From Pedococcus aerophilus (lineage in GTDB: Bacteria > Actinomycetota > Actinomycetes > Actinomycetales > Dermatophilaceae): a DNA stretch of 64,000 nt. The notes beneath the pieces were generated by a model. The model was not told the origin of the DNA. It worked only from the letters and a program-made list of their open reading frames with translations, and searched no databases. The position numbers and the translations under genes were made by a program. The stretch is from NCBI RefSeq assembly GCF_039532215.1, contig NZ_BAAARN010000003.1:264485-328484 (forward strand), given 5' to 3'. Positions 3,229 through 64,000 of this stretch are shown here, piece by piece; within the stretch, counting starts at the first letter, position 1; every line of letters starts with the position of its first letter.

Positions 3229-3282
3229 CCCGTGACTGTATGCCGCCGCGGAGCCACCGCGCGTGCGTGGGAGGCTGTGCCC

Positions 3283-4329
3283 ATGAAGGCCACGATCCTG
3301 CACGCGCCCGGCGACATCCGTCTCGACGAGGTCCCGGACCCCGTCCTGGTCGCCCCGACCGATGCCCTCGTCCGCGTCACCGCCTCCTGCGTCTGCGGCA
3401 GCGACCTGTGGCCCTACCGCGGGATCAACGACGTCGCCGAGCCCACCCGGATCGGTCACGAGTTCGTCGGGATCGTCGAGGAGGTCGGCGCCGAGGTGCG
3501 AAGCCTGCGCCCCGGCGACTTCGTCATCGCTCCCTTCATGTACTCCGACAACACCTGCCCGCACTGCCGGGTCGGCATCCAGTCGCGGTGCTCGCACGGC
3601 GGCTTCTGGGGTGGCGAGGACCGCGACGGCGCGATGGTCGACGGCGGTCAGGGCGAGTACGTCCGGGTGCCGCTCGCCGACGGGACGCTGGTCTCCACCC
3701 GCGAGGTGCCGGACGACTCGCTCATCCCGTCGCTGCTGAGCCTCTCCGACGTCATGGGCACCGGCTGGCACGCCGGGGTCGCCGCCCGCGTCTCCGAGGG
3801 CGACACGGTCGTCGTCGTGGGCGACGGTGCCGTCGGGCTCAGCGGCGTCCTCGCCGCGGCGCGGATGGGCGCCGAGCGCATCATCGCGATGTCACGGCAC
3901 GCCTCCCGCCAGGCGGTCGCCCGCGACTTCGGCGCCACCGACATCGTCGAGGTGCGTGGCGACGACGCGGTCGCGGCCGTCAAGGAGCTCACCGACGGCG
4001 TGGGTGCCGACGCCGTGCTGGAGTGCGTCGGCACCAACGAGTCGATGCACACCGCCATCGCCGCGGCCCGCCCCGGCGCCACGGTCGGCTACGTCGGCGT
4101 GCCGCACGGCATCGAGTATCCGGTGCGCGACATGTTCGTCCGCAACGTCGGGATCGCCGGCGGCATCGCCCCAGCCCGCCAGTACCTGCCCCAGCTGCGC
4201 GACGAGGTGCTCGCCGGGGCGATCAACCCCGGTGCGGTCTTCGACCTCGAGCTCCCACTCACCGAGGTGGCCGAGGCGTACGCCGCGATGGACGAGCGCC
4301 GCGCGATCAAGTCGCTGCTGCGCCCCTGA
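3283..4329 (+). CDS. Zinc-dependent alcohol dehydrogenase family protein (MDR superfamily)
   Basis: 348-aa medium-chain dehydrogenase/reductase. Catalytic zinc ligands are visible in CVCGSDLWPYRG (Cys near residue 37) and IGHEFVGIVEEVG (GHE). The usual structural-zinc lobe is altered: DNTCPHCRVGIQSRCSHGG has fewer regularly spaced cysteines than the standard four. The Rossmann motif is VVVVGDGAVGLSGVLAA. Substrate unknown. GGGAGG precedes the ATG by 8 nt. The next gene begins 2 nt after the stop, so the two probably share a transcript. Confidence 0.88.
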   Translation: MKATILHAPGDIRLDEVPDPVLVAPTDALVRVTASCVCGSDLWPYRGINDVAEPTRIGHEFVGIVEEVGAEVRSLRPGDFVIAPFMYSDNTCPHCRVGIQSRCSHGGFWGGEDRDGAMVDGGQGEYVRVPLADGTLVSTREVPDDSLIPSLLSLSDVMGTGWHAGVAARVSEGDTVVVVGDGAVGLSGVLAAARMGAERIIAMSRHASRQAVARDFGATDIVEVRGDDAVAAVKELTDGVGADAVLECVGTNESMHTAIAAARPGATVGYVGVPHGIEYPVRDMFVRNVGIAGGIAPARQYLPQLRDEVLAGAINPGAVFDLELPLTEVAEAYAAMDERRAIKSLLRP

Positions 4330-4331
4330 CG

Positions 4332-5201
4332 ATGGCGGCCCGCGACAGGGGGAAGCGGCGGAAGGGCTCTGCGGCCGACGACGCACCTGACGACGACGCC
4401 GCGTCGCCCGTCGAGTTCGTCGACGACGGGACCGGTGGGACGGTCGTCATGATCGACGGCCACCCGCAGTCCTACGTCCAGCTCGACGACCCTCGGTTGC
4501 TGGTCTTCGAGTACGTCCAGTTCCTCGCCGCCGTCGCCGACGTCCTGCCCGACGGCCCGGTCGCCGCCACGCACGTCGGCGGAGCAGGCCTGACCCTCCC
4601 CCGGTATCTCGCCCACACCCGGCCCGGCTCGCCGCAGATCGTCCTCGAACCCGCCGAGGCCGTGACCGCGGCGGTCCGGGAGAGGTTGCCGCTGCCGCGT
4701 GGTCACCGGATCAGGGTGCGCCCGGTGGACGGTCGGACCGGACTGGCCACCCTCGCTGACGACAGCGCCGACCTCGTCGTGGTCGATGCGTATGCCGCGG
4801 GGCGGGTCCCGGCCGAGCTCACCTCGACGCAGTGGTTCACCGACGTGGCCCGGGTGCTGCGTCCCGACGGCCTGCTGTCGATGAACACCGCCGACGAGCC
4901 CCATCGCCGCCACCTCGCCAGGCTGCACGCCACGATCGCGTCGGTCCTGCCGCACACCGCCGCGATCGCCACCTCCGAGGTGCGCAAGGGCCGCCGGTTC
5001 GGCAACACCGTGCTCGTCGCGAGCGCCCAGCCGCTGCCGCTGCCCGCCCTGACCCGACGGGTCGCCATGACGGCGTTCTCCGCGACCCTGCTGCACGGGC
5101 CGGCCCTGGCCACGGCGCTCGGGTCCGCACAGGTCTTCACCGACGACGACGCCCAACCCTCGCCGGAGCCACCGAAGGTCGAGGGCTGGCGCATTCGCTG
5201 A
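4332..5201 (+). CDS. Spermidine synthase-like methyltransferase-fold protein
   Basis: 289-aa protein with a Rossmann methyltransferase fold of the spermidine-synthase type: THVGGAGLTLPRYLAHTRPGSPQIVLEPAEAV is the nucleotide-binding segment, DSADLVVVDAYAAGRVPAELTS the post-strand-4 region, and LRPDGLLSMN the next strand. No transmembrane half is present, unlike fused MFS/spermidine synthases. The first 25 residues are charged and low in complexity. It lies 2 nt after the dehydrogenase, suggesting an operon. Many actinobacterial members are not proven aminopropyltransferases, so the reaction is left open. Confidence 0.8.
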   Translation: MAARDRGKRRKGSAADDAPDDDAASPVEFVDDGTGGTVVMIDGHPQSYVQLDDPRLLVFEYVQFLAAVADVLPDGPVAATHVGGAGLTLPRYLAHTRPGSPQIVLEPAEAVTAAVRERLPLPRGHRIRVRPVDGRTGLATLADDSADLVVVDAYAAGRVPAELTSTQWFTDVARVLRPDGLLSMNTADEPHRRHLARLHATIASVLPHTAAIATSEVRKGRRFGNTVLVASAQPLPLPALTRRVAMTAFSATLLHGPALATALGSAQVFTDDDAQPSPEPPKVEGWRIR

Positions 5202-5286
5202 CGCGTCGGCACCACGCACCCCTCGGATGACCCGCGCCCTCCGGCGCCACGCGCCATACCGGCCGCCACCGGGCAGGATGGAGGCC

Positions 5287-6330: not shown

Positions 6331-6693
6331 TCAGACCAGCGGGAGGTATGCCGCGAGGTCGGCACGGTGGCCGCTGACCCGCAGGCTCCCGGCCTCCCAG
6401 GCCCCGTCCCAGCTGAGCGCGCCGGTGGCCACCTGGAGCCAGGTCTGCGCGTCGGTCTCGACGACGTTCGGCGGTGTGCCCCGGGTGTGGGTCGTTCCCG
6501 ACACGCACTGCACGGCCCCGAACGGCGGCACCCGGACCTCGACACTTCGTCCCGGCGCGACGGTCGCCAGCTCCTCGAGCGCGTACCGCACCGCGGTCGC
6601 GAGGTCGTCGCGGGCCAGCTCGGTCCCGGTGTCGCGCCACCGCTGCACCGCGGCCCGGCCGGCGACGACAGGGACTCGGCGACGCGGCGGCAT
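6331..6693 (-). CDS. Sterol carrier family protein (SCP-like, actinobacterial)
   Basis: 120-aa soluble protein of the small sterol-carrier-like family often found beside purine genes in actinobacteria. Recognisable segments are LATAVRYALEELA, GRSVEVRVPPFGAVQC, RGTPPNVVETDAQTWLQVATG and a C-terminal AAYLPL. No enzymatic residues are evident; ligand unknown. The start codon is unusual: ATG sits inside GGTATGCCGCC, a copy of the dispersed motif, with GGAGG only 1-2 nt upstream, so ribosome placement there looks strained and a nearby non-ATG start is possible. Confidence 0.75.
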   Translation of the reverse strand: MPPRRRVPVVAGRAAVQRWRDTGTELARDDLATAVRYALEELATVAPGRSVEVRVPPFGAVQCVSGTTHTRGTPPNVVETDAQTWLQVATGALSWDGAWEAGSLRVSGHRADLAAYLPLV

Positions 6694-6760
6694 ACCTCCA
6701 TCGTAGGCAGGCGTCCGACGCGGGCCACCGGCCGGGACCGGGCTGTTCGACGACCGGCGA

Positions 6761-8898: not shown

Positions 8899-11195
<2,297 letters not shown>

Positions 11196-11199: not shown

Positions 11200-11867
11200 G
11201 CTGAAACCACCTGTCGCAGAACAGAAGTGAAGAACGGGAGCCCGTCGGTCGAGGGGCCGTAGCCCTCCTCGACGCAGTGCTCGGGGTGGGGCATGAGGCC
11301 CACGATGTTGCCGCGCTCGTTGGTGATGCCCGCGATCCCGCGGTACGAGCCGTTGGGGTTGTCGCCGGCATACCGGAAGGCCACGCGGCCCTCGCCCTCG
11401 AGCTCGTCCAAGGTGCGCTCGTCGGCGACGAACCCACCCTCGCCGTTCTTGAGGACGATCGTGATCTCCTGGCCGGCCTCGAAGTCGGAAGTCCAGGCGG
11501 TGGAGGCGTTCTCGACGAGGAGCCGCTGGTCGACGCAGTTGAACTTGCGGTGGTCGTTGCGGATCAACGCACCGGGCAGCAGGTGGCTCTCGCAGAGCAC
11601 CTGGAACCCGTTGCAGATGCCGAGCACCGGCAGGCCGCCCCGGGCCGCCGGGATGAGCGCATCCATGACCGGGGCGAAGCGGGCGATGGCACCGCAGCGC
11701 AGGTAGTCCCCGTACGAGAACCCACCGGGCAGGACCACCGCGTCGACGCCCTTGAGGTCGGCGTCGCCGTGCCAGAGGCTGACCGCCTCGGCACCGACGG
11801 CGCGCACCGCACGGGCGGCGTCACGGTCGTCGAGGGAGCCCGGAAACGTGACGACCCCGACCTTCAC
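11196..11867 (-). CDS. purQ: Phosphoribosylformylglycinamidine synthase, glutaminase subunit PurQ
   Basis: 223-aa class I glutamine amidotransferase supplying ammonia to PurL. The nucleophilic Cys is in [13 protein letters not shown]; the His/Glu pair is in [11 protein letters not shown]. The N-terminus [20 protein letters not shown] and [18 protein letters not shown] are diagnostic. It overlaps purS upstream and purL downstream by 4 nt each. Confidence 0.97.
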
Positions 11868-12145: not shown

Positions 12146-12232
12146 TCGGGTGTCTCCTGGGTTCAGCACGGAACTGCGGGGGTGGGAAGCGTCGGCAGTC
12201 TATCCGGGCGACGGAGCAGGTATGCCGCGTGG

Positions 12233-15105: not shown

Positions 15106-16506
15106 ATGTCCACCGCCACGACCCGCAGCCGTCACGACGACCGGCCGCCCAGCCTGTTCACCCGGGAGCACCTCCCGTTCGCCGTGGGGGCGGTCGCGCT
15201 CGTGACGCTCGCCGCGTTCGAGAACCGCGCCACCACCACGGTCCTGCCGACCGTGGCGCGCGACCTCGACGGGCTGTGGCTCTTCGGTGCCGCGAGCGCT
15301 GCACCGCTCGTGTCGTTCGTGCTGGCCACGGTCGTGGCCGGCGCGTGGGCGGACCATCGCGGACCGGTGCGCCCGCTCCAGGCCGGGATGGTGGTGTTCG
15401 TCGCCTCCCAGGTCCTCATGGCGGTCGCACCGGGCATGGCGCTGTTCACGATCGGGCGGTTCGGCTCAGGGATCTCGGAGGCGCTGCTCGACGTGTCCCT
15501 GACGGTGCTGCTCGCCCGGGCGCTGCCGGAGGCGTTGCGGGCCAAGGTGTTCGCCGCCTTCGCCGCCGCGTGGGTGCTCCCGTCGCTGGTGGGACCGCCC
15601 ATCGCCGGGGCCCTGACCGAGGTGTGGTCGTGGCGGTCCGTGTTCGCGATCGGCGTCGCGCTGCTCGTTCCGGCGGGGCTGCTGCTGCGACCGTCGATGC
15701 GAGCCTCCGCGGCGCAGACCGGCACCGCGACACGCTGGACTTCGAGCGAGCACCGCGCCGTACGCGCGGCCGCCCTCGCCGCCACCGGTCTCGCGGCGCT
15801 GACCGCCGGCGGCTCGCTGCTCGGACGCAGTGGCCCGGTCCGCGCCCTCGGCATCGTCCTGGTGGTCGCCGGGCTCGCCGCCACGGCGCCGGCGGTCCGC
15901 GCCGTGCTGCCGGCCGGGACGCTTCGGCTCGCCCGCGGCATACCCGCCCTCGTGGCCCTGCGTGGTCTCGTGTCCGCGGCCTTCGGCACCGCGGGAAGCC
16001 TCCTACCGCTCATGCTCACGACGGTCCACCACCTCGGGCCGGCCGCAGCCGGCGCGAGCCTGACGGTGACCGGGCTTTGCTGGGCAGCCGGGTCCCAGCT
16101 GCACGGGCTCGACGCCGTGCAGCGCCGCGTGGGGGCGGTGCGACGGCTCCAGGTCGGCTTCGCCCTCATCACCGTCGGCATCGTCGGACCGGCACTGACC
16201 AGCCTGGCGCTTCTGCCGGTGGTCCCGGGGCTCGTGCTCTGGGGCGTCGCCGGGATCGGGATGGGGATCGTGTCGCCGACCCTGTCCACCCAGCTGCTGC
16301 ACCTCGCCCCCGTGGCCGACCAGGGGCGCATCACCGCGGCGTCCAGCCTCACGGCCTCGGTGGCGGGCGCGGTGGCCCTGGCAGCCGCCGGTGCCCTCAT
16401 CGCGTGGCAGGCGCCGGCGCTGCCGGGATGGCTCTTCGCTGCGGTGATGGTCGGCAGCGCCGCGATCGGCGCCCTCGGCTGGGCCGCCTCCCGCCGCGCG
16501 GGCTGA
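15106..16506 (+). CDS. MFS transporter, drug-efflux type
   Basis: 466-aa membrane protein with about 12-14 hydrophobic helices. Helix 1 begins after REHLPFAVGAVALVTLAAFENRATTTVLPTVARDL, the loop 2-3 motif is GAWADHRGPVRPLQAG, and VGPPIAGALTEVWSWRSVF is a motif C-like segment of antiporters. The likely role is proton-driven export of small molecules; substrate unknown. ATG at 15106 is chosen; ATG at 15097 is also in frame. It uses a rare ATA Ile codon at 15939, inside a copy of the dispersed motif. A candidate operator lies upstream. Confidence 0.87.
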   Translation: MSTATTRSRHDDRPPSLFTREHLPFAVGAVALVTLAAFENRATTTVLPTVARDLDGLWLFGAASAAPLVSFVLATVVAGAWADHRGPVRPLQAGMVVFVASQVLMAVAPGMALFTIGRFGSGISEALLDVSLTVLLARALPEALRAKVFAAFAAAWVLPSLVGPPIAGALTEVWSWRSVFAIGVALLVPAGLLLRPSMRASAAQTGTATRWTSSEHRAVRAAALAATGLAALTAGGSLLGRSGPVRALGIVLVVAGLAATAPAVRAVLPAGTLRLARGIPALVALRGLVSAAFGTAGSLLPLMLTTVHHLGPAAAGASLTVTGLCWAAGSQLHGLDAVQRRVGAVRRLQVGFALITVGIVGPALTSLALLPVVPGLVLWGVAGIGMGIVSPTLSTQLLHLAPVADQGRITAASSLTASVAGAVALAAAGALIAWQAPALPGWLFAAVMVGSAAIGALGWAASRRAG

Positions 16507-21595: not shown

Positions 21596-22927
<1,332 letters not shown>

Positions 22928-46371: not shown

Positions 46372-46404
46372 AGGCCGAGTATGCCGCGTGCTTGGATGGC
46401 CGTG

Positions 46405-49996: not shown

Positions 49997-51891
<1,895 letters not shown>

Positions 51892-52026: not shown

Positions 52027-52091
52027 GTATGCCGCCGTGCCCGACACCGCGCCGAGCCGCGCCCCCGCGGGGTGGCGGGCAGGCGGCATAC
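52027..52091. repeat. Hairpin with GTATGCCGCC / GGCGGCATAC ends
   Basis: Two inverted copies of the dispersed motif form the base of an imperfect stem (GTATGCCGCC-g-TGCCCG pairs with CGGGCA-GGCGGCATAC). It lies between the dnaK promoter and the palindromic repeat, downstream of the GH65 gene. Confidence 0.55.
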
Positions 52092-52216: not shown

Positions 52217-54766
52217 TCAGGTGGGCTTGTGGTCCTCTTGGCGCTTGCGGCTGCGGGGGTCGGGGACCCCTGCGGTGTAGACCATCTCGTGCTCGTCGCC
52301 ACGGCCGACGACGGGCATGCTGCCGAGCTCGCGCGTGATGACCGGGCCCTGGTCCTGCAGGGGCACGACGGTCGGCTCGCCGGGGTCGACCCGCACGCGC
52401 TCGCCGCGCACGACGAACTCCAGGCCGTCGCCCTCGACGAGGGTGAAGGCGATCTGGTCCGGCAGGATCTCGACCCGGACCCGGTTGCCGCGCACGCGGA
52501 GCCGGAACTCCAGCCGCGGCCAGCTCGCCGGCAGCCGCGGGTCGAAGGTCAGGGTGCCGTTGTGGTCGCGCATGCCACCGAACCCGTAGACCGAGGCGTT
52601 CCAGACCCCGCCGCAGGACGCGATGTGCACGCCGTCGGCGGCGTTGCGGTGCAGGTCGGCGAGGTCGACGTAGAGGCCGTCGTGGAAGTAGCGCAGCGCC
52701 AGGTCCTGGTACCCGACCTCGGCGGCGATGATCGACTGGACGACGGCAGACAGGGTCGAGTCGCCCGTGGTGATCGGGTCGTAGTACTCGAAGTCGGCGC
52801 GCTTCTCCTCGACGCTGAACAGGTCGCCCTGGAGGAACAGCGCCGCCACGACATCGGCCTGCTTGAGCACCTGGAACCGGTAGATGACGAGCGGGTGGTA
52901 GTGCAGCAGCAGCGGTCGCTTGTCGGGCGGGGTCGCGGCGAGGTCCCACACCTCGCGCTCGAGGAAGTGCTGGTCCTGGGGGTGCACGCCCATCGCCTCG
53001 TCATAGGGGATGTGCATCCCCTCGGCGCAGTGCCGCCACTCCTCGATCTCGGCGTCCTCGACCTCGAGCCGGGCCATCATCCGGGCGAACTCGGCCGGCC
53101 GGCGCTCGCGCAGGATGTCCGACCACCGGGCGGCCTGGCGCAGGTTGTCGCGGGCCATGACGTTGGTGAAGAGGTTGTTGTTGACGACGGTCGTGTACTC
53201 GTCCGGGCCGGTGACGCCGTGGATGTGGAACCGAGGCTCCTTGCGCCCCAACCAGAATCCGAGGTCGGCCCACATGCGCGCGGTCTCGACGAGCACGTCG
53301 ATCCCCTCGCGCATCATGAAGTCCTCGTCACCGCTGGCGCTGACGTACTTCGAGAGCGCGTAGGCGATGTCGGCGTTGATGTGGAACTGCGCGGTGCCGG
53401 CGGCGTAGTAGGCCGAGGCCTCCTCACCGTTGATGGTCCGCCACGGGAAGGCCGCCCCTGACTGGGACAGCTCGCGCGCACGACGGCGGGCGGCCGGGAG
53501 CATCTGGTAGCGGAAGCGCAGCGCCCCGCGAGCCATCCACGGCGAGGTGTAGCTGAGGAACGGCAGGACGTAGGTCTCGGTGTCCCAGAAGTAGTGCCCC
53601 TCGTACCCGGAACCGGTGACGCCCTTGGCCGGGATGCCGGCCTGCTCCACGCGACCCGAGGCCTGCGCGAGCTGGAAGAGGTTCCAGCGCACCGCCTGCT
53701 GCACGTCGGGGTGGCCGTCGACGACCACGTCCGAGTCGGCCCAGAACCGGTCCATCCAGCGCCGCTGCTCGGCGAACAGCTCGTCCACGCCGGCCTCGCG
53801 GGCTCGGTCGAGGGTGCGTCGACCGCGGTCGACCAGCTCGCGCACAGGCACCCCGCGCGACGAGTGGTATGCCGCGACCTTGGTGATCGTGATCGGCACG
53901 CCTTCCTTGGCCGTGACCCGGTAGACCTTCTTGGCCAGGTCCTCCTCGGCGTGCGCCAGCTCCTCGAACTCGTTCTCGGTGCGGATCTCGTGGTCCACGG
54001 CGACGGCGACCGTCATGCCCGAGCTGGCGCAGCGGTAGCCGAGGATGGCACGGCGCTCGCTGCACCAGTGGCTCTGCGGGAGCAGGACCCGCTCGGTGAA
54101 CTTCGCCGCCTTGCGCGGGTCGAAGCCGGCACCCATCGCGGCGGACTTCACGAAGTACTCGTCCTGGCCGTCCTGGCGGTTGAGCACCTGCGAGGAGATC
54201 GCGATGGGGGCGTCGCCGTCGAGCAGGGTGACCTCGAAGGTCATCACGGCGAGGTGGCGCTGCTCGAAGGACACCATCCGGCGCGACTCGACCTTGACCC
54301 GCTTGCCCGACGGGGTGCACCAGACCAGCGACCTGCTCAGGACGCCGTCCGCGAAGTCGAGCGTGCGGTCGTAGTGCTCGAGGTCCGCGACGGACAGCAG
54401 CAGCGGCTCGTCGTCGACGTAGAGCTTGATCGTCTTGACGTCGGGGACGTTGACGATGGTCTGGCCGGTCTGCGCGAAGCCGAAGGCCTCCTCCGCGTGC
54501 CGGATCTTCCACGTCTCGTGGAAGCCGTTGATGAAGGTCCCGTGCGCGTGCGTCTCGCGCCCGTCCTCGGGGTTGCCGCGCATCCCGAGGTAGCCGTTGC
54601 CGACGGCAAAGACCGTCTCGGTGACGCCGAGGTCCTCGTTGGAGTAGTAGGACTCGGTCCAGCGCCACTCGTCGACGGGGAACCTCGTGCGGTCGACCGG
54701 GTCGGCAGCGCCCACCCGCCCCGGTGTCGCGGCGTGCCCGTCCTGCTCCGTGTCGACGTCGGTCAT
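52217..54766 (-). CDS. Glycoside hydrolase family 65 phosphorylase (trehalose/maltose/kojibiose type)
   Basis: 849 aa. N-terminal beta-sandwich (1-290; VTETVFAVGNGYLGMRGN, THAHGTFINGFHETWKI), (alpha/alpha)6 barrel (350-720) with YEGHYFWDTETYVLPFLSYTSP, FHIHGVTGPDEYTTVVNNNLFTN (catalytic acid Glu) and a C-terminal domain (GGVWNASVYGFGGMRDHNGTLTFDPRLP). GH65 phosphorylases use phosphate to split a disaccharide into beta-glucose 1-phosphate and glucose. The overlapping beta-phosphoglucomutase gene supports this. The exact disaccharide is unclear. Confidence 0.93.
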   Translation of the reverse strand: MTDVDTEQDGHAATPGRVGAADPVDRTRFPVDEWRWTESYYSNEDLGVTETVFAVGNGYLGMRGNPEDGRETHAHGTFINGFHETWKIRHAEEAFGFAQTGQTIVNVPDVKTIKLYVDDEPLLLSVADLEHYDRTLDFADGVLSRSLVWCTPSGKRVKVESRRMVSFEQRHLAVMTFEVTLLDGDAPIAISSQVLNRQDGQDEYFVKSAAMGAGFDPRKAAKFTERVLLPQSHWCSERRAILGYRCASSGMTVAVAVDHEIRTENEFEELAHAEEDLAKKVYRVTAKEGVPITITKVAAYHSSRGVPVRELVDRGRRTLDRAREAGVDELFAEQRRWMDRFWADSDVVVDGHPDVQQAVRWNLFQLAQASGRVEQAGIPAKGVTGSGYEGHYFWDTETYVLPFLSYTSPWMARGALRFRYQMLPAARRRARELSQSGAAFPWRTINGEEASAYYAAGTAQFHINADIAYALSKYVSASGDEDFMMREGIDVLVETARMWADLGFWLGRKEPRFHIHGVTGPDEYTTVVNNNLFTNVMARDNLRQAARWSDILRERRPAEFARMMARLEVEDAEIEEWRHCAEGMHIPYDEAMGVHPQDQHFLEREVWDLAATPPDKRPLLLHYHPLVIYRFQVLKQADVVAALFLQGDLFSVEEKRADFEYYDPITTGDSTLSAVVQSIIAAEVGYQDLALRYFHDGLYVDLADLHRNAADGVHIASCGGVWNASVYGFGGMRDHNGTLTFDPRLPASWPRLEFRLRVRGNRVRVEILPDQIAFTLVEGDGLEFVVRGERVRVDPGEPTVVPLQDQGPVITRELGSMPVVGRGDEHEMVYTAGVPDPRSRKRQEDHKPT

Positions 54767-55482
54767 CGACCGATCAGCTCGTCGAGCTCGGCCACGACGA
54801 CGTCGGCGCCACCGTCGAGCAGCGGCTGGGCTCCGGCGCCCCGGTCGACCCCGACGACGAGCCCGAAGTCACCGGCCCGGCCGGACTGCACGCCGGACAG
54901 GGCGTCCTCGAGCACGACCGCACGGTCCTTGGTCACGCCGAGCTGCTCCGCGGCATACAGGTAGGTGTCGGGGGCCGGCTTGCCCGGCAGCCCGGCGGCC
55001 GACGCGACCTGGCCGTCGACGACGACCTCGAAGCGGTCGGCGAGGCCGGCGGCGGCGAGCACGGCAGGAGCGTTGCGGGAGGAGGAGACGACGGCCACGG
55101 CGGTGCCGCGCTCGCGCAGGTGGTCCAGGAGGGCGACCGAAGCGGGGTAGGGGGTGACGCCCTCGTCGCGCAGGACCGCGGAGAAGGCGGCGTTCTTGCG
55201 GTTGCCGAGGCCGCAGACGGTCTCGAGCTCGGGGGCGTCCTCGGGCGTGCCGTCGGGCAGGGTGATGCCCCGGGAGGCGAGGAAGGAGCGGACCCCGTCG
55301 TAGCGCGGTTTGCCGTCGACCCAGGCGAAGTAGTCCTCGTCGGTGTACGGCTGCTGGTCGTCGTCGCGCTCGTCGAGGTAGGCGTTGAACATGACGTCCC
55401 ACGCCCGCATGTGCACCTCGGCGGTGGGGGTCAGCACCCCGTCGAGGTCGAAGAGGGCAGCGTCGTAGTCGGTCCAGTCCAC
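54763..55482 (-). CDS. pgmB: Beta-phosphoglucomutase family HAD hydrolase
   Basis: 239 aa. HAD motif I FDLDGVLTPTAEVH, cap with CGLGNRKNAAFSAVL, motif II VVSSSRNAPAVL, motif III KPAPDTYLYAAEQLG, motif IV VVLEDALSGVQSG. It converts beta-glucose 1-phosphate to glucose 6-phosphate, feeding glycolysis. The GTG start is at 55482; the stop overlaps the GH65 start by 4 nt. Motif I has Thr where many members have Asp three residues later, so a pure phosphatase role is not excluded. Confidence 0.9.
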   Translation of the reverse strand: MDWTDYDAALFDLDGVLTPTAEVHMRAWDVMFNAYLDERDDDQQPYTDEDYFAWVDGKPRYDGVRSFLASRGITLPDGTPEDAPELETVCGLGNRKNAAFSAVLRDEGVTPYPASVALLDHLRERGTAVAVVSSSRNAPAVLAAAGLADRFEVVVDGQVASAAGLPGKPAPDTYLYAAEQLGVTKDRAVVLEDALSGVQSGRAGDFGLVVGVDRGAGAQPLLDGGADVVVAELDELIGR

Positions 55483-56219: not shown

Positions 56220-57265
56220 GGGCCCACACCTGGGAACGCGCGACCGACGCCGCCTCGGCCGTCGAGCGCGTCAGCTCCGCCCCCGACGCGCAGTTCATCG
56301 CCGCCGGGAGCAACCTCGTCGACCACCTCAAGCTCGGCATCGCTCGCCCTGACCTCCTCGTCGACGTGAGCCGCCTGCCGCTGGACCAGATCGACCACTC
56401 CGAGGCGGGCGTGCGCATCGGGGCCAACGTCCGCAACAGCGACCTCGCCGCCGACGCGGGCATCCGTCAGGGGTATGCCGTGCTGTCCCGGGCCCTGCTG
56501 TCCGGGGCTTCCGGCCAGATCCGGAACCAGGCCACCACCGCGGGAAACCTGCTGCAGCGGACGCGCTGCGTCTACTTCCAGGACGTCACGACGCCGTGCA
56601 ACAAGCGCGAACCCGGTTCGGGCTGCTCGGCGCTCGAGGGGTACGGCCGCTACAACGCCATCCTCGGAGCCTCGTCCGACTGCGTCGCCGTGCACCCGTC
56701 GGACCTCGCCGTCTCGCTCGCTGCGCTCGACGCCACGGTGACGGTGCTCGGCAGCGAAGGCGAGCGGGAGGTGGCGTTCGAGGACCTGCACCGCCTCCCC
56801 GGCGACCACCCCGAGCGGGACACGACTCTGCGCCACGGCGACCTCGTCACCGGCGTCTTCGTCCCCGCGCTCCCTTCCGGCACGCGGTCGACCTACACCA
56901 AGGTCCGCGACCGGGCGTCGTACGCGTTCGCCCTCGTCTCCGTCGCGGTCGTCGTGAGGGTGGCCGACGACGGCACGCTCGACGACATCCGCATCGCCTG
57001 GGGTGGCGCCTCGCACAAGCCGTGGCGGGCCCGTCGCGCCGAGGACCTGCTGCGCGGCAAGGAGCCCAGCGCCGAGAACGTGCGGGCCGCGCTCGACGCC
57101 GAGCTGGCGGAGGCGAAGACCTCCGCCGACACGGCCTACAAGGTGCCGATGCTCCTTCGCACCACCGCGATGACGCTCGTGCAGCTGACCTCGCCGGGCT
57201 CGTCCCCGTTACCCACGTCGTCCACCACCTCGACCACCACGTCGACCGAGGAGGCCTCCGCATGA
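56216..57265 (+). CDS. paoB: Molybdenum hydroxylase FAD subunit with 4Fe-4S insertion, PaoB-like
   Basis: 349 aa. FAD domain (FIAAGSNLVDHLKLGIARP, IRNQATTAGNLLQRTRC). The insertion RCVYFQDVTTPCNKREPGSGC...SSDC carries four cysteines, the extra 4Fe-4S cluster of PaoB/HcrB-type subunits, absent in plain xanthine dehydrogenases. The C-terminal CODH-type domain ends in a Ser/Thr-rich tail. Coupled to both neighbours by 4-nt overlaps. Confidence 0.9.
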   Translation: MRAHTWERATDAASAVERVSSAPDAQFIAAGSNLVDHLKLGIARPDLLVDVSRLPLDQIDHSEAGVRIGANVRNSDLAADAGIRQGYAVLSRALLSGASGQIRNQATTAGNLLQRTRCVYFQDVTTPCNKREPGSGCSALEGYGRYNAILGASSDCVAVHPSDLAVSLAALDATVTVLGSEGEREVAFEDLHRLPGDHPERDTTLRHGDLVTGVFVPALPSGTRSTYTKVRDRASYAFALVSVAVVVRVADDGTLDDIRIAWGGASHKPWRARRAEDLLRGKEPSAENVRAALDAELAEAKTSADTAYKVPMLLRTTAMTLVQLTSPGSSPLPTSSTTSTTTSTEEASA

Positions 57266-59460
57266 GCAGCCACGACACCGGCAGCACCCGGCCTGCGCCG
57301 ACCACCGACTCCGGCGCCCTCGAGGTCGCTGCCATCGGGCAGGGCACCCGTCGAATCGAGGGCCGCCTGAAGGTGACCGGTGACGCGACGTACGCCTACG
57401 AGGCCGACGTCGAGCGACCGCTCTACCTGCACCTCGTGCAGTCGACCATCGCCAAGGGCACCGTCACCGGGATCGACAGCACCACGGCGCGCGCACTCGA
57501 GGGGGTCGTCGCGGTGCTCGACCACACCAACGCTCCACGTCTGGAGTCGACCGAGGACGCCGAATACGCTGCGCTGCAAGGTGATTCGGTGGGCTTCCGC
57601 GGGCAGGTGATCGCTGTGGTCATCGCCGAGAGCGTCGAGGCGGCCCGCGAGGGCGCCCTCCTCGTCGAGGTGACGTACGACGAGCAGGAGCACCGGGCCG
57701 ACTTCGTCGCCGACGACCCCGAGCTCTACAAGCCTGAGAAGGTCAACCCTGCCTTCCCGACCGACAGCAACGTCGGCCGGATGGACCGGGCGCTGGAGAA
57801 CGCCGATGTCGTCGTCGACCAGACGTACCGCACGCCGTTCGAGCACAACAGCCCGATGGAGCCGCACGCGCTGACAGCACGGTGGGACCACGAGGCGGCC
57901 GAGGGCGAGCCGGTGCTCTTCATGCATGCCTCGACCCAGGCGGTGCACGGTGTGGTCAAGACGCTGGCACCGTTGTTCGGGCTGGACGCGACCCAGGTGC
58001 ACGTCGTGTCACCGTTCGTCGGTGGCGGGTTCGGCAGCAAGGGACTCCCCCACGTCCACGACGTGGTGGCCGCCCTTGCGGCGCAGACCACCGGTGGCCG
58101 TCCGGTGCGGCTGGCGCTGACCCGTCAGCAGCTCTTCGCCCTGGCGGGCTACCGCACCGCGACGATCCAGCGGTTCCAGCTCGCGGCCGACTCGACCGGT
58201 CGGCTCGTCGGCATCAACCACGAGGTCATCGAGCAGACCTCTGCCATCAAGGAGTTCGCCGAGCAGACCGCGATCGCCACGCGCCACATGTATGCCGCGC
58301 CGAACCGGCACACGTCGCACCGGCTCGCGCCGCTCGACGTCGCCGTCCCGTCGTGGATGCGGGCACCGGGCGAGATGCCGGGGATGTTCGCCCACGAGGT
58401 CGCGATGGACGAGCTCGCCGAGGCCGTCGGCGTCGACCCGGTCGAGCTGCGCATCCTCAACGAGCCGGAGACCGACCCCGAGACGGGACAGGAGTTCGGG
58501 CACCGCAAGCTCGTCGAGTGCCTGCGCGAGGGTGCGTCCCGCTTCGGCTGGGCCGACCGCGACCTGCGGCCCGGCGCCACCCGTGACGGCGACTGGCTCG
58601 TGGGCACCGGGGTCGCGGCGGCGACCTACCCCTACTACCAGCAGCCCGGCAACCGGGCCACGATCCGCGCCCTCGAGGGTGGCCGCTACGCCGTCGAGAT
58701 CGGCGCTGCCGACATCGGCACCGGTGCCCTCACGGTGCTGAGCCAGATCTCGGCCGACGCCCTCGGGGTGCGCCTCGGCGACGTCGAGGTGGCCATCGCG
58801 GACAGCCGGCTCCCGGTCGCCACCGTCGCCGGCGGCTCTGCCGGCACGGCCTCGTGGGGCTCGGCCATCGTCGGCGCCTCCCGGGCGTTCCGCGAGGAGC
58901 ACGGCACCTCGCCGTCGGTGGGTGACGAGACCACCGCGGGACCGGCGGGCAACCCCAACATGGGCAAGTACTCGCTGCACTCGTTCGGGGCGCAGTTCGT
59001 CGAGCTCAGGGTGAACATCTGGACCGGCGAGCTGCGGGTGGCCCGCGCCCTCGGTGTCTTCTCGGCGGGCCGGATCATCAACCCCGTCACGGCGCGGTCT
59101 CAGCTCATCGGCGGCATGACGATGGGCCTGTCGACAGGGCTGTTCGAGGAGTCGGTGCGCGACCCGCGCTTCGGCCACATCGTCACCCAGGACCTCGCGA
59201 GCTACCACGTCGCCTCGCACGCCGACATCCCGGAGATCGAGGCGGTCTGGCTCGACGAGACCGACCCGCTGACCAACCCGATGGGCTCGCGCGGCATCGG
59301 CGAGATCGGCATCGTCGGTGCTGCCGCGGCCGTGGCGAACGCGGCCTGGCACGCGACCGGGGTGCGGGTGCGCGACATCCCGCTGACGGCCGACAAGTTC
59401 CTCGACCTCTCGCCCGAGCTCCCCGCGCTCAAGGGTCACCCGGCAGCCGCTTTCGCCTGA
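57262..59460 (+). CDS. paoC: Molybdenum hydroxylase catalytic subunit, PaoC-like
   Basis: 732 aa. Segments: GRLKVTGDATYAYEADV, YRTPFEHNSPMEPHALTARW, VVSPFVGGGFGSKG (molybdopterin site), GEIGIVGAAAA with the catalytic Glu in GSRGIGEIG. Together with the two upstream subunits it should oxidise aldehydes or N-heterocycles. No XdhC or cofactor genes are nearby, so insertion factors must lie elsewhere. Ends before a terminator cluster. Confidence 0.92.
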   Translation: MSSHDTGSTRPAPTTDSGALEVAAIGQGTRRIEGRLKVTGDATYAYEADVERPLYLHLVQSTIAKGTVTGIDSTTARALEGVVAVLDHTNAPRLESTEDAEYAALQGDSVGFRGQVIAVVIAESVEAAREGALLVEVTYDEQEHRADFVADDPELYKPEKVNPAFPTDSNVGRMDRALENADVVVDQTYRTPFEHNSPMEPHALTARWDHEAAEGEPVLFMHASTQAVHGVVKTLAPLFGLDATQVHVVSPFVGGGFGSKGLPHVHDVVAALAAQTTGGRPVRLALTRQQLFALAGYRTATIQRFQLAADSTGRLVGINHEVIEQTSAIKEFAEQTAIATRHMYAAPNRHTSHRLAPLDVAVPSWMRAPGEMPGMFAHEVAMDELAEAVGVDPVELRILNEPETDPETGQEFGHRKLVECLREGASRFGWADRDLRPGATRDGDWLVGTGVAAATYPYYQQPGNRATIRALEGGRYAVEIGAADIGTGALTVLSQISADALGVRLGDVEVAIADSRLPVATVAGGSAGTASWGSAIVGASRAFREEHGTSPSVGDETTAGPAGNPNMGKYSLHSFGAQFVELRVNIWTGELRVARALGVFSAGRIINPVTARSQLIGGMTMGLSTGLFEESVRDPRFGHIVTQDLASYHVASHADIPEIEAVWLDETDPLTNPMGSRGIGEIGIVGAAAAVANAAWHATGVRVRDIPLTADKFLDLSPELPALKGHPAAAFA

Positions 59461-59480
59461 CGGCTCCCGCCCGCAGCGCG

Positions 59481-59519
59481 AGGTATGGCGCGACGCCCAC
59501 TCGGCGCCGCGCCATACCT
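59481..59519. terminator. Terminator after paoC, hairpin made of two motif copies
   Basis: AGGTATGGCGCG (59481-59492) pairs with CGCGCCATACCT (59508-59519); an inner CGCC/GGCG extends the stem. The base of the stem is two facing GTATGGC motif copies, as in the hairpin at 42859. Convergent genes flank it. Confidence 0.75.
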
Positions 59520-59532
59520 GTGCTCGGGGAAC

Positions 59533-59612: not shown

Positions 59613-59618
59613 GCGTGG

Positions 59619-61889
59619 CTAGGTCGCGAGGACCGCGACGGCGACCGGGAGCAGGGACAGCAGGAGCACGAGGGAGTCGGCGAGCCGCCACGGCGCGGGC
59701 TGGGCCCAGGTGCGACGCGAGGCCGTCGCGAAGCCGCGCGAGTCCATCGCCACGGCGAGCGCTGCGGCCGCCTGGAGCGAGCGCACCAGCATGCCGAGCG
59801 TGAGCGCCCAGACCTCGCCGAGCACCGACCTCGGGGACCGTGCCGTCGCGGCGATCCCGCGCACCCGTCGGGCCCGGGCGATCTCGGCCCAGACGTCGCC
59901 GAACGTGTGGACCCGCTGGAGGGCCGCGGCCAGGGCCACGACCGGCCGGGCCGGCAGGCGCAGCTGCTGGGCGAGGTGGTCGCCGAGGGCATCGGCGTCG
60001 ACGTGCTGGATGAGCACGGCCGACGGCAGCACGATGATGAGGACCCGCAGCCCGGCCGTGGCGACCACGTCGAGGTCACGGGTGCCGAGCAGCCAGGTCG
60101 ACCAGGCCACCGACACCGCCCCAATGAGGCCCGGCACCAGGCGCAACGCGACGCCCCGGGTCCGGCCCGCCGGACTGACGCCGCGACCCGGCGCGGACAG
60201 GGCCAGGACCGCGAGCACGAGCTGGGTGGCGAGGACTGCGAGGCTGGTGCGCCAGTGCGGTGCGGCCACCCCGGCCGGTATGGCGAGCATCGAGGCGCCG
60301 AGGAGCGCGAGCGGGCCCGCTCGGGAGACCAGCGGTCGTCGGGGGGCCGGTGGGGTGGGCGGCTGGACGGGGCGTTCGATCGTCGTGACGCGGTCCGCTC
60401 GGGCCACGACCCCGTCGTCGTGGGTCGTGACCACGACGGCCGAGCCCGCGTCGCGCAGCGCCTCGAGGATGCCGGTCACCGCGGCCCACGTGTGCCGGTC
60501 CTGGCCGACCGTGGCCTCGTCGGCGAGCAGGACCGCCGGCTGGTGGGCGACGGCCGAGGCCATCGCGAGGCGGCGTTGCTCACCCCCGGACAGGTGCCGT
60601 GGGTCGGCCTGTTCGAGGTGGTCGAGCCGTAGGACGGCGAGCAGCGTTCGGCACCGGGCCAGGGCCTCGGACTCCACCAGTCCCAGGGCGCGCGACGTCG
60701 TCATCACCTCATCGAGCACGGTCGACGCGACGAGGGTCGAGCTCGCCCACTGCGGCACCCAGGCCAGGGTGCGCGCGACGTCGAGGGTCGACCAGTCGCG
60801 TGGGTCGCGGCGGCCGTCGACGGCGAGGTCGGGGTGGACCCGGACCTCGCCGCCCTTGCGGTCGACCAGGCCGGCGAGCGCGAGCACCAGAGTGGACTTG
60901 CCCGCGCCGGAGGGCCCCACGAGCGCGTGCGACTCGGCGGCGCGCAGCTGGAGCCACTGACCGTCGACGGCCACGCTGGTGCGGGTCGACCCGTCCAGCC
61001 GTCGCACCGAACGCTCGACCCGCAGGTCGACGGCGTCGAGCGCCACGACGTGGGCACCGAGCCGTCCCGACGCGAACGTCCCTGCCGGGACGGGTCGGGG
61101 GTCGGGGTCCGGGACACCCGGCACCCAGATCCCCTGTGCGGCGAGGGACTCGCTCCGCTCCGCCAGGACCTGACGGGGGTCGCCGTCGGCGACGACCCGG
61201 CCACCGTCGTCGAGGACGACGAGCCGGTCGGCGAAGTCCACCCACGGCCCGAGCCGGTGCTCGACGACGACGGTGGTCAGGTGGCGTGACGCGGTGACGT
61301 CGGCGACGACGTCCCGGACGGAGGCGGCGTTGTCCGGGTCGAGCATCGCGGTGGGTTCGTCCAGGAGCAAGAGGCTCGGCTCGAGCGCCAGCGCCCCGGC
61401 GAGCGCGAGCCGCTGCTGCTCGCCCCCGGACAGGGCGTGCGTCGGGGTGTCCTGCGGCATGGTCAGGTGGACCGCAGCCAGCGCGACGGCGACGCGCGCG
61501 GGCATGGCCGCGCGCGGCATACCGGTGTTCTCCAGGCCGAAGGCGACGTCGCGCCCGATCGTCGCGGACACCACCCCTGCCCCCGGCTCCTGGAGGACCA
61601 GGCCGACCGCACCGGCGCGGGCGCCCGGCTCGGCACCGTCGAGGTCGACCGAACCGGATCGTTCCCCGGAGTCGGCGACCTCGAGCACCCCCGCGAGCGC
61701 ACGCAGCAGGGTGGACTTGCCGGAGCCGCTGGGGCCCACGAGCAGCACCCGCTGCCCGGCGGGGACGACCAGGTCGATGCCGCGCAGGACGGGCTCACGG
61801 CGACCGTAGGGGCGCCAGGTGAGGTCGTGGACCTCGACGCGTCCGGGGTGTCCCCCGGCGACGGCGGGACCGTCGCCGGGGGTCAGCAC
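59619..61889 (-). CDS. Single-chain ECF transporter core: two ATPases fused to EcfT
   Basis: About 756 aa. ATPase 1 (residues 20-260): Walker A LLVGPSGSGKSTLLRAL, signature HALSGGEQQRLALA, LLLDEPTAMLDPDN. ATPase 2 (270-490): LVGPSGAGKSTLVLAL, HLSGGEQRRLAMA, VLLADEATVGQDRHTW. EcfT-like membrane domain (510-756): helices at LALLGASMLAIPAGVA and others, ARARRVRGIAATARSPRS holding the coupling Ala-Arg pair. It powers thiamine-precursor uptake with the adjacent YkoE protein. GTG at 61889, overlapping ykoE, is tentative. One ATA codon in a motif copy. Confidence 0.9.
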   Translation of the reverse strand: MLTPGDGPAVAGGHPGRVEVHDLTWRPYGRREPVLRGIDLVVPAGQRVLLVGPSGSGKSTLLRALAGVLEVADSGERSGSVDLDGAEPGARAGAVGLVLQEPGAGVVSATIGRDVAFGLENTGMPRAAMPARVAVALAAVHLTMPQDTPTHALSGGEQQRLALAGALALEPSLLLLDEPTAMLDPDNAASVRDVVADVTASRHLTTVVVEHRLGPWVDFADRLVVLDDGGRVVADGDPRQVLAERSESLAAQGIWVPGVPDPDPRPVPAGTFASGRLGAHVVALDAVDLRVERSVRRLDGSTRTSVAVDGQWLQLRAAESHALVGPSGAGKSTLVLALAGLVDRKGGEVRVHPDLAVDGRRDPRDWSTLDVARTLAWVPQWASSTLVASTVLDEVMTTSRALGLVESEALARCRTLLAVLRLDHLEQADPRHLSGGEQRRLAMASAVAHQPAVLLADEATVGQDRHTWAAVTGILEALRDAGSAVVVTTHDDGVVARADRVTTIERPVQPPTPPAPRRPLVSRAGPLALLGASMLAIPAGVAAPHWRTSLAVLATQLVLAVLALSAPGRGVSPAGRTRGVALRLVPGLIGAVSVAWSTWLLGTRDLDVVATAGLRVLIIVLPSAVLIQHVDADALGDHLAQQLRLPARPVVALAAALQRVHTFGDVWAEIARARRVRGIAATARSPRSVLGEVWALTLGMLVRSLQAAAALAVAMDSRGFATASRRTWAQPAPWRLADSLVLLLSLLPVAVAVLAT

Positions 61890-62728: not shown

Positions 62729-62815
62729 CGACTCCCTACGCCGGTGCGAACCGGATCAGGTGTGAGGGTCTGCGGTGGGCCGCACTCTCAGCGCTTGCGC
62801 GCTCCCCTGTCGTGA
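62729..62815 (-). promoter_or_regulatory. TPP (thiamine pyrophosphate) riboswitch
   Basis: On the minus strand the conserved parts are present in order: GCTGAGAG (near 62785), ACCTGATCCGG (near 62760) and GTAGGGA (near 62735), with CGAC/GTCG closing P1. It leads the ykoE transcript and should shut it off when TPP is high. The 113 nt between it and the ATG hold the expression platform, probably a hairpin masking the ribosome site. Confidence 0.92.
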
Positions 62816-62900
62816 CGTCTGCAGGCTACTCCACCCTGTGCAAGGCTGGACAGGACGATGGCGCAGAGATCTGCGACCTGCACGACGACTGGAGGACGAC

Positions 62901-63179
62901 ATGGGCCCGATGGTGTGGAGAATTCTGGGATCGGGATCTGCGGTCCTTGCCGGGGTCGTGGCGAACAAGCTCGTCACGACGATCTGGAAGAAGGCCGGCA
63001 AGGACTCGACGCTGGACCCGCGCGATCCGCGCACGCCGTGGAAGGACGCGGTGGCGTTCGCTGCGCTCACCGGCCTGGCTGCCGGCGCCGCGAAGGTCGC
63101 GATGACCCGCAAGGCCGCCCAGTACTACGAGAAGTCCTCCGGTCACCTGCCGCAGGCCATGCAGGAGGGCGACGCCTAG
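62901..63179 (+). CDS. DUF4235 family small membrane protein
   Basis: 92 aa, MGPMVWRILGSGSAVLAGVVANKLVTTIWKKAGKDS with one N-terminal hydrophobic helix, then PWKDAVAFAALTGLAAGAAKVAMTRKAAQYYEKSSG with a second amphipathic one. This is the DUF4235 pattern, common in actinobacteria; role unknown. GGAGG is 5 nt before the ATG. Its stop TAG shares the CTAG palindrome with the stop of the opposing gene. Confidence 0.85.
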   Translation: MGPMVWRILGSGSAVLAGVVANKLVTTIWKKAGKDSTLDPRDPRTPWKDAVAFAALTGLAAGAAKVAMTRKAAQYYEKSSGHLPQAMQEGDA

Positions 63180-63571
63180 GGCTGCTCGGGCGGCAGCAGG
63201 TCGGTGCGGCCGAACATCTCGGCGGTCGCCCGCGCGCTGGGCGTTCCCAGCTCGGGGTCGGCGCCGTGCTGCAGCAGCGCCCTCACCACGTCGTCCTCGC
63301 CCTTGAAGACGGCCCCGGCCAGGGGCGTCTGACCGCGGTCGTTGGTGCGGTCGACCTCGGCGCCGGCAGCAGCCAGGCCGAGGACCGCGTCGGCGTGCCC
63401 GTGGTAGGCGGCGAGCATGAGGAGCGTGTTGCCACTGGCGTCCGTGAGGTCGACCGGCACCCCTGCCGCGACGTAGGCGAGCAACCTCGGCGTGTCACCG
63501 TGGCGCGCGAAGTCGAAGCAGGCGTGCGCCACCTCGACCAGCTCGGGGGCTGGGGTGGTCGGCTCGGTCAT
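63176..63571 (-). CDS. Ankyrin-repeat protein
   Basis: 131 aa with about three ankyrin repeats: [83 protein letters not shown]. No catalytic domain. Its start overlaps the hutI stop (ATGA), so it is translationally coupled to the imidazolonepropionase gene. Confidence 0.88.
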
Positions 63572-64000
63572 GAGGGTCCTCCGGACGGTGCGGCGAGGTC
63601 GAGCGCCCGGGCGATGGGCACGCCTGCACGGTAGGACAGGTGGACGTGCGACGGCGCGTCGAGGACGGTGAGGTCCGCCCGGGACCCGACCCGGATCTGC
63701 CCGATGTCGCTGCGGCGCAACGACTTCGCGGAGCCGGCCGTCGCGGCATACACGGCCTCGCCGGGCGTGAGGCCCATCTCGCGGACGGCGAGCGCGACGA
63801 CGAACGGCATCGACGACGAGTAGCAGGTGCCGGGGTTGCAGTCGGTGGCCAGCGCGATGTCGACGCCGGCGCGCAGCAGCCCCGCGGCGTCGGGGTAGGG
63901 CGAGCGGGTCGAGAACTCCACCCCGGGCAGCAGGGTCGCCACCGTGGTGCCGGCGGCGTCGGCGAGGGCGGTGACGTCGTCGTCGGACAGGTAGGTGCAG
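63568..64000 (-). CDS. hutI: Imidazolonepropionase, 3' part (5' end outside the window)
   Basis: C-terminal 143 aa of an amidohydrolase of histidine degradation. Diagnostic: [94 protein letters not shown]. The Asp in ATDCNPG is a metal ligand. Other hut genes should lie to the right of the window. Confidence 0.92.

Follow-up and report, generated by a model that had tools for sequence, protein, structure and literature searches.

GTATGSCG, an over-represented octamer of Pedococcus aerophilus and its family with same-strand exclusion: a possible self-recognition tag for DNA exchange

Introduction

Self-tagging of DNA for exchange has been described in two Gram-negative families (PMC1939737). 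The DUS of the Neisseriaceae occur in many copies, lack orientation bias and are in excess outside genes (PMC1939737). Close inverted pairs form terminators, copies are conserved and spacing is 1.1-1.5 kb (PMC2397512), and eight related dialects are found along the family tree (PMC3630211). The USS of the Pasteurellaceae are characterized by their copy number, a spacing of ~1 kb, an excess outside genes and hairpin pairs (PMC1939737, PMC7811141). HIP1 of cyanobacteria, GCGATCGC, is a massively repeated octamer whose abundance varies among related genomes (PMC4390886).

We found that an octamer in Pedococcus aerophilus (genome G000), GTATGSCG, shares features with each of these. It resembles DUS in its over-representation, lack of orientation bias, intergenic excess, inverted pairs, conserved copies and dialects. 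It differs from DUS in the word itself, in its high-GC Gram-positive host, in a spacing that counts the copies of one strand only, and in that a PilT-type pilus was not found in G000. Copy number, ~1 kb spacing, intergenic excess and hairpin pairs are shared with USS. The USS site, however, is longer and has AT-tracts (PMC7811141), and its uptake was found to be independent of orientation (PMC1939737), whereas orientation matters for GTATGSCG. Like HIP1, GTATGSCG is a massively repeated octamer that differs in abundance between relatives. HIP1 is palindromic and tied to orphan methylases, whereas GTATGSCG differs from its reverse complement and the methylase families PF01555 and PF00145 are not common to its carriers. 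Chi of Escherichia coli, GCTGGTGG, is likewise short and oriented and has a link to recombination. In the same tests, Chi was strand-imbalanced and without exclusion; in contrast, GTATGSCG was strand-balanced and showed exclusion.

Results

The word in a 64-kb window

The window is a 64,000-nucleotide stretch of G000 (contig NZ_BAAARN010000003.1, positions 264,485 to 328,484). The original prediction was that GTATGSC occurs about 47 times in it, 20 times on one strand and 27 on the other. We counted exactly 47, 20 on the plus strand and 27 on the minus strand. The accompanying chance expectation of ~12 was too high: 100 dinucleotide shuffles averaged 3.47 copies (sd 1.90) and never exceeded 8. 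The seven-base word is real, but its core has eight bases, GTATGSCG, because G comes next in 47 of 47 copies. C follows the core in 34 of the 47, and 47 of the 49 occurrences of GTATG in the window are part of the word. The longer form GGTATGGCGCGTG recurs as had been noted, with exact copies at 5248, 30599, 40639, 42864 and 42882. At 14.7 words per 20 kb, the window is denser than 19 of 20 other sampled stretches (4 to 15 per 20 kb).

About a third of the copies had been placed in intergenic DNA, and this holds: 18 of 47 are not wholly within the genes called here, which make up 92.4% of the window. Intergenic copies of GTATGCCG lie at 3238..3245, 12220..12227, 38650..38657 and 52027..52034 (plus strand; the last upstream of dnaK) and at 6688..6695, 31136..31143 and 52084..52091 (minus strand; the last 57 bp from its inverted partner at 52027). 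Intergenic copies of GTATGGCG lie at 24111..24118, 35560..35567 and 49323..49330 (plus) and at 5252..5259 (within GGTATGGCGCGTG), 24740..24747 and 36966..36973 (minus). Other plus-strand copies of GTATGCCG are at 4790..4797, 6346..6353, 29321..29328, 38935..38942, 46379..46386, 53867..53874, 56473..56480 and 58290..58297. Its other minus-strand copies are at 10365..10372, 11366..11373, 22306..22313, 26210..26217, 28217..28224, 32681..32688, 35707..35714, 36118..36125, 40821..40828, 54951..54958, 61515..61522 and 63744..63751, with one in dnaK (50130..50137) and one overlapping the called start codon of adenylosuccinate synthetase (22892..22899). GTATGGCG is also found on the minus strand at 9180..9187, 48803..48810 and, in clpB, 45508..45515.

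The rare codons TAT and ATA were said to occur mostly in the word. With the genes as called here, GTATGSCG accounts for 19 of the 26 TAT codons and for 5 of the 8 ATA codons, the same five ATA codons as were named before. They are forced by GTATGCCG at 15936..15943 and 39256..39263 (minus) and by GTATGGCG at 30600..30607 and 40640..40647 (both within GGTATGGCGCGTG) and 60278..60285 (plus).

Two hairpins, each between convergent genes, are built from two inverted words. At 42857..42901, a 21-bp perfect stem with a 3-base loop carries GTATGGCG in its left arm (42865..42872, plus) and right arm (42886..42893, minus); at -44.4 kcal/mol (z -9.5), it looks like a bidirectional terminator, by prediction. 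At 59475..59524 (-38.8 kcal/mol, z -5.2), the arms hold GTATGGCG at 59483..59490 (left, plus) and 59510..59517 (right, minus).

Abundance in the genome and the family

The excess extends to the full genome, far above a Markov model (order 3, words masked). GTATGCCG was enriched 49x in G000, 86x in G002 and 223x in G017, and in all three the top-scoring 8-mer was either GTATGCCG itself or a shifted, overlapping version of it. G000 has 1,807 copies of GTATGSCG compared to 169 of the reversed word. Enrichment was found in 10 of 10 relatives in the genus Pedococcus, in 13 of 25 other genera of the family, and in none of 147 genomes sampled outside it, and words are scattered on the family tree. 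We found no published mention of the word in open-licence literature, where a passing mention could be missed.

Words were not concentrated in one region of G000 (sampled stretches), and local GC did not predict them (rho 0.09, p 0.41). The 9 lowest-GC of 92 windows had 1.11 words per 5 kb, and the rest had 2.06-2.62.

There was no orientation bias in G000 (chi2 7.3 over 20 stretches) or G002 (chi2 2.1 over 8 stretches). With the strands balanced, a replication-oriented segregation site, one of the roles first suggested, is not supported. A KOPS-like bias along chromosome arms was not seen in the sampled stretches. Nor did strand balance per stretch reveal a leading-strand bias of the Chi type; E. 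coli Chi, the positive control, was strongly imbalanced (chi2 37 over 8 stretches).

Several family genomes have dialects of the word. These were counted in intergenic DNA and are therefore free of codon effects: in different genomes, GTATGCGG was found 7 times (0.2 expected), GGATGCCG 12 times (0.7), GTACGNCG 19 times (2.8) and GTATGNCG 19 times (1.6), with CGTACGCC a weaker case (8 vs 0.8). Three candidates enriched in genes only were dropped: GGACGCCG in G020 (intergenic 2 vs 1.1), GTACGCCG in G029 (1 vs 0.5) and CGATGCCG in G011 (5 vs 2.5). No convincing word was seen in G012 (CTATGCC only, 16 vs 2.7), G018 (a local cluster), G019 or G024; for G016 and G023 the inspection covered 20 kb. 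In Arthrobacter, CGACGNCG is in intergenic excess (60 vs 10.3). We do not claim it as the same system, since same-strand CGACGVCG pairs were not depleted (579 vs 497.5). A signal in Rothia was one gene region in two strains.

The DNA word is kept within and outside genes

It had been proposed that the DNA word itself is kept. Our results agree: the word is kept against codon preference, in genes and intergenic DNA alike. Sixty-two of 209 sites lay outside genes, within 11.8% of the bases, and intergenic enrichment was 25x in G000 and 47x in both G002 and G017. Beyond the two hairpins of the window, close pairs 15-30 bp apart were mostly inverted: 15 were '+-', 1 was '-+' and 2 were '++'. In a comparison with relatives, also suggested earlier, 290 of 502 ordered pairwise comparisons had conserved positions, compared to 130 expected from identity alone (one 20-kb region).

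By their reading frame, the genic copies would be compatible with TAC being changed to TAT ahead of GCC through a mutational, codon-pair or tRNA context: of the 105 sense copies in G000, 91 are in frame G-TAT-GSC-G. Such a context does not fit the intergenic enrichment. A mutational context is also unlikely because the main one-mismatch words are not depleted in G000: GTACGCCG occurred 57 times (26.2 expected), GTGTGCCG 27 (21.3), GCATGCCG 40 (29.9) and GTCTGCCG 28 (36.8). Together with the slot test below, we consider this explanation already refuted.

Words exclude each other on the same strand

We found that words are depleted near other words on the same strand, and only there. Among 818 sites in 24 genomes, there were 109 same-strand pairs less than 750 bp apart (~246 expected) and 267 opposite-strand pairs (246 expected). 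L164 and L165, which overlap the window and L097, were left out of this count. Opposite-strand pairs were near expectation (0.86-1.08) at every distance above 100 bp. Spacing is even when each strand is taken separately. Karlin is said to have described in 1996 that USS are evenly spaced within each orientation.

Same-strand pairs within ~750 bp numbered 6 in G000 (34.6 expected), 28 in G002 (55.4), 42 in G017 (64.8) and 6 in G030 (17.3). Exclusion was weak in G026 (16 vs 22.4; 89 of 1000 simulations equally low) and undetectable in the dialect carriers G013, G033 and G034. A test of strand alternation was convincing in G000 (2 of 500 permutations reached it) and G002 (0 of 500); taken alone, it was unconvincing in G017 (62 of 500) and in the other 21 genomes (32 of 500).

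We controlled for codons by using slots, tyrosine positions one silent change away from the word. In G000, 84 of 127 slots without a same-strand word within 750 bp were filled. In contrast, only 7 of 35 with one were filled (p = 1.7e-6; opposite strand, p = 0.73). The same-strand effect was also seen at 500 bp (p 0.0009) and 1000 bp (p 0.0001). The test covers G000, as G002 and G017 have 6 and 4 unfilled slots. A pooled test of the three genomes is confounded by density and was set aside (same-strand p 0.21 at 750 bp; filled slots more often had opposite-strand neighbors, p 0.012). Because identical slots are filled according to the same-strand neighbor, a mutational context, which the original prediction had listed, and a codon context are ruled out.

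Even spacing per strand and conserved positions could also reflect a chromosome-organising site bound by a nucleoid or segregation protein. We think this very improbable. The strand bias of oriented translocase sites is absent, density is not limited to one region, and a double-strand binder should not ignore copies on the opposite strand. A one-sided double-strand model was unsupported as well, with 140 convergent and 152 divergent opposite-strand pairs at 100-1000 bp.

A proposed self-tag read on one strand

The best-fitting reading is one absent from the original prediction: GTATGSCG as a self-recognition tag, read on one strand and spread by preferential uptake or recombination of word-bearing DNA. 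We give it an even chance. Within the population, cells would favor word-bearing DNA in uptake or recombination, and the word would accumulate by molecular drive, as uptake sequences do in Neisseria and the Pasteurellaceae. A putative reader protein would recognize the 8-base core, and drift of its specificity between lineages would give dialects. The reader would act on one strand, so that a word serves its own strand over roughly 0.75-1 kb. A second same-strand word within that range would be redundant and lost, and one on the opposite strand would not. In a toy drive model, same-strand-only exclusion arose only if the word was read on one strand. Reading would take place on single-stranded DNA, the process may be natural transformation or another recombination route, and drive, rather than direct selection, would maintain the word. 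Counting against a self-tag, exclusion between strands, as expected for orientation-blind uptake of the kind described for Haemophilus (PMC1939737), was not seen. The dialect genomes with undetectable exclusion and the weak exclusion in G026 also count against it.

More broadly, and tentatively enough that we lean against it, a one-strand self-tag of this kind may serve transformation or recombination in the Intrasporangiaceae and possibly in further Micrococcales such as Arthrobacter and its relatives. It would be a Gram-positive counterpart of DUS and USS, with each strand tagged every one to four kilobases and dialects (NNAYGNSG) separating related species genetically. If Actinobacteria have an equally strong word with dialects, its origin, its receptor and the question of drive versus selection could be tested in an independent lineage. 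The exclusion on the same strand gives a quantitative hint at the way such words are read. The word may also matter for transforming these bacteria: DNA that carries its proper form may enter the cell or recombine more efficiently.

Candidate readers

We looked for gene families that correlate with the word in 36 family genomes (28 for PF00437 and PDDEXK_1). No reader protein was found among them: none of PilT, ComEC, PF00437, RecC, PDDEXK_1/AdnAB and two methylase families marks carriers cleanly. ComEC was present in 36 of 36 genomes, equally in those without words, and so does not predict words; in G000, ComEA adjoins it (translation read). T2SSE-family ATPases (PF00437) were above cut-off in 27 of 28 genomes, some probably Tad. 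A ComP-like receptor (a minor pilin in a retractable type IV pilus) is not indicated: PilT was above the family cut-off in just 1 of 36 genomes (G035) and not in G000. G015 has strong pieces slightly below cut-off, which G000 also lacks. The pilus type bearing the Neisseria receptor thus appears mostly missing. Because of this and the lack of a reader, we do not claim membership in DUS. A limited literature search gave no report of natural transformation in Intrasporangiaceae.

It is possible, but unlikely, that the word works in recombination as Chi does, with the end-resection enzyme AdnAB reading it in one direction, on one strand, and passing over oppositely oriented copies. Adjacent PDDEXK_1 frames of the AdnAB type were found in 28 of 28 genomes, and orientation-specific action accounts for exclusion among same-strand copies only. 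However, these pairs occur equally in genomes without words. E. coli Chi, read by RecC, showed no exclusion (10 pairs vs 12.0; 400 kb, 96 sites, modest power), and its enrichment is far below the 50-220x of GTATGSCG. RecC was found in 3 of 24 genomes enriched for GTATGSCG and 7 of 12 non-enriched genomes, a difference partly due to shared ancestry. In the 21 enriched genomes that lack RecC, RecBCD is not the reader.

A modified site, with a HIP1-like orphan methylase marking one strand for repair strand discrimination or another epigenetic role, seems to us more doubtful still; a methylation target was among the roles first listed. If just one strand of a non-palindromic site carried the mark, at roughly one per kilobase of each strand, this would suit the per-strand spacing, and parts of HIP1 are recognized by two orphan methylases (PMC4390886). 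However, PF01555 (N6/N4 methylase) was absent from 15 of the 24 enriched genomes, including G000, and PF00145 (C5 methylase) from 12 of 24. Selection on one mark among thousands also seems too weak against codon bias.

Separately, an extra small PDDEXK_1 frame tracked the words: 15 carriers had it and 4 did not, and 1 non-carrier had it and 8 did not, in a count that takes dialect genomes as carriers and is confounded by the tree. This frame is mostly ~8-15 kb from adnAB, and in G000 it lies amid ordinary-looking chromosome.

Abundance and genomic context of the word

We found that the window contains 47 copies of GTATGSC (20 and 27 on the two strands), in agreement with the original prediction. 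The predicted enrichment held, but the number expected by chance is 3.5 (dinucleotide shuffles) and not the ~12 that had been claimed. The core is also longer than the seven bases proposed: GTATGSC was followed by G in 47/47 copies and by GC in 34 of them, and 47 of the 49 occurrences of GTATG in the window belong to the word. Below, "the word" is GTATGSCG.

The genome containing the window (G000; 4.02 Mb, 10 contigs) has 1,807 copies of GTATGSCG vs 169 of its reversed-order control. The two top-scoring 8-mers in 464 kb of this genome were GTATGCCG and its shift, TATGCCGC. Compared to an order-3 model in which the words were masked beforehand, GTATGCCG was enriched 49-fold and GTATGGCG 19-fold in G000, and GTATGCCG was enriched 86-fold and 223-fold in the relatives G002 and G017, respectively. 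The main one-change words were not depleted relative to this model, indicating that the word was not made at the expense of one parent word. GTATGCAG, possibly a weak form of the word, was likewise enriched in the G000 sample comprising the window and loci L089-L108 (15 vs 1.3).

In G000, 62 of 209 copies were outside called genes (calls from a simple script), which leave 11.8% of bases, and word density peaked between convergent genes. Pairs of words 15-30 bp apart were mostly facing (15 "+-", one "-+" and two "++"). One such inverted pair, at 42857-42901, forms a hairpin with a perfect stem of 21 bp. In addition, word places in one 20-kb region from 11 Pedococcus genomes were shared in 290 of 502 ordered comparisons vs 130 expected from identity alone, although these comparisons are not independent.

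Words on the same strand exclude each other

We measured spacing in a pooled set of 818 sites from 24 genomes. Same-strand pairs up to 750 bp apart occurred at 0.24-0.57 of expectation, those 750-1000 bp apart at 0.80, and those farther apart at normal frequency. Opposite-strand pairs more than 100 bp apart were at 0.86-1.08 of expectation, and those less than 50 bp apart, which form hairpins, were in excess (1.98). Neighbors at least 100 bp apart alternated in strand, 415 to 275, above all 500 label shuffles. Same-strand pairs within 750 bp were depleted in G000 (6 vs 34.6 expected), G002 (28 vs 55.4), G017 (42 vs 64.8) and G030 (6 vs 17.3). Exclusion was weak in G026, and none was seen in G013, G033 and G034.

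As controls, we used eight other frequent 8-mers in G000, G002 and G011. None of the eight had depletion of same-strand pairs within 750 bp, and six exceeded expectation. Two of the controls, CTCGGGGT and GTACGGCG, were near expectation; GTACGGCG nonetheless alternated in strand (29 to 15).

The original prediction had raised a mutational-context effect as a possible cause. We examined all Tyr codons in called genes of G000 that are one silent change from the word (slots; G|TAY|GCC or GGC|G, n=162). TAT was used in 7 of 35 slots with a same-strand word within 750 bp and in 84 of 127 slots without one (p = 1.7e-6). A word on the opposite strand had no effect on slot filling (p = 0.73, G000). 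Because the slot bases are identical in both groups, neither mutation nor codon context can explain the effect of the neighbor. Empty slots in G002 and G017 were too few for a repeat of the test.

Alternative functions

A segregation site was another proposed role, but the strand balance of the word, which across stretches is tighter than chance, does not fit one that is oriented. As for a methylation target, the two methylase families searched were not common to carriers.

A Chi-like recombination signal would also act strand-specifically, so we analyzed Chi in E. coli (400 kb, 96 sites). Chi had no exclusion (10 pairs vs 12.0, with modest power) and had a strong strand imbalance (chi2 37 over 8 stretches). 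Among 36 genomes of the family, RecC (PF04257) was missing from 21 of the 24 enriched for GTATGSCG (present in 3) and present in 7 of the 12 that were not enriched, and pairs resembling the end-resection enzyme AdnAB failed to separate carriers from others (28 genomes).

A small PDDEXK_1 nuclease frame lies ~14 kb from adnAB in G000 (L235, contig 1, G000:C1:1290000-1301000; minus strand, 6292-7176). Most word-carrying genera have such a frame. Most other genera lack it, as do 9 of the 10 RecC-bearing genomes.

Similarity to DNA uptake sequences

As described in four papers, the uptake sequences of Neisseriaceae (DUS) and Pasteurellaceae (USS) resemble the word in their enrichment, dialects (altered forms in relatives), excess between genes, conservation of positions, terminator pairs and ~1 kb spacing (PMC3630211, PMC2397512, PMC1939737, PMC7811141). 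By analogy, the word may work like a DUS. We do not class it as one because PilT, a defining feature of Neisseria DUS, was over the cut-off in 1 of 36 family genomes, and that genome was not G000.

ComEC was found in 36/36 family genomes, and ComEA adjoins it in G000. In G005, a single-contig genome, the ComEC match is split into two adjoining pieces (G005:C1:1517076-1517881); the gene is broken or the split is a sequencing error. Micrococcus luteus belongs to the same order. Its transformation is described as requiring ComEC and Tad/Flp pili (PMC4322843).

In a toy model of drive, a word had no use if its fragment carried another readable word. With per-strand reading, values in the 0-100 and 100-300 bp bins were 0.23 and 0.60 for same-strand pairs and 0.98 and 0.97 for opposite-strand pairs. 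With double-stranded reading, there was exclusion on both strands (0.47 and 0.76; 0.36 and 0.78). That is, in the model, per-strand but not double-stranded reading yields same-strand-only exclusion. The word might be read on a single strand, during or after DNA entry. This would fit the passage of DNA through ComEC as a single strand, as stated in one of these papers (PMC7811141). None of the gene families searched across the family genomes identified a protein that might recognize the word.

Distribution and dialects

We considered GTATGSCG enriched if there were >200 copies and >2.2 times the reversed word. It was enriched in 10/10 other Pedococcus genomes searched and in 13 of 25 further genera from the same family (mildly in G025 and G026). 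A wider sample of the order included 147 genomes from outside the family, none of which reached this level. A tree of four heat-shock proteins, rooted at its midpoint, had carriers and non-carriers interleaved, which suggests repeated loss of the word. G010, a Pedococcus genome with few words, retained 2 of 36 word places known from relatives; G000, G003 and G009 retained 14/34, 6/24 and 4/24, respectively.

Some genomes without or poor in GTATGSCG have a related word. Codon use can mimic the word inside genes, so dialects were tested in intergenic DNA alone (from ~76-116 kb per genome). The dialects were GTATGCGG in G030 (7 vs 0.2), GGATGCCG in G026 (12 vs 0.7), GTACGNCG in G033 (19 vs 2.8) and CGTACGCC in G034 (8 vs 0.8). 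In G013, which is rich in GTATGSCG, the sixth place can be any base (GTATGNCG, 19 vs 1.6). Three further candidates failed this test. The sixth base was C in 74 of 75 sampled copies from six Pedococcus relatives (G001, G003-G006 and G008), in 153 of 154 copies in G002, and in 152 of 221 copies in G000 and G007, the other 69 having G.

An Arthrobacter-like pool (15 loci) had CGACGNCG between genes 60 times vs 10.3; the corresponding numbers were 41 vs 42.7 in 20 Streptomyces loci and 94 vs 53.9 in G000. No spacing signature was found for this Arthrobacter-like word. In Rothia nasimurium, GGACGCCG was present between genes 6 times vs 0.2 in a single gene region from two strains (L078 and L087), and is possibly a dialect outside the family.

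Other repeated words were AAACCTAGG in G015 (L145) and AAAGAGCA in G025 (L155, L221-L223), both probably local repeats. The palindrome CGCATGCG occurred 46 times (both strands counted) in G018 (L163, L210-L212), tightly clustered, and is probably a local repeat array.
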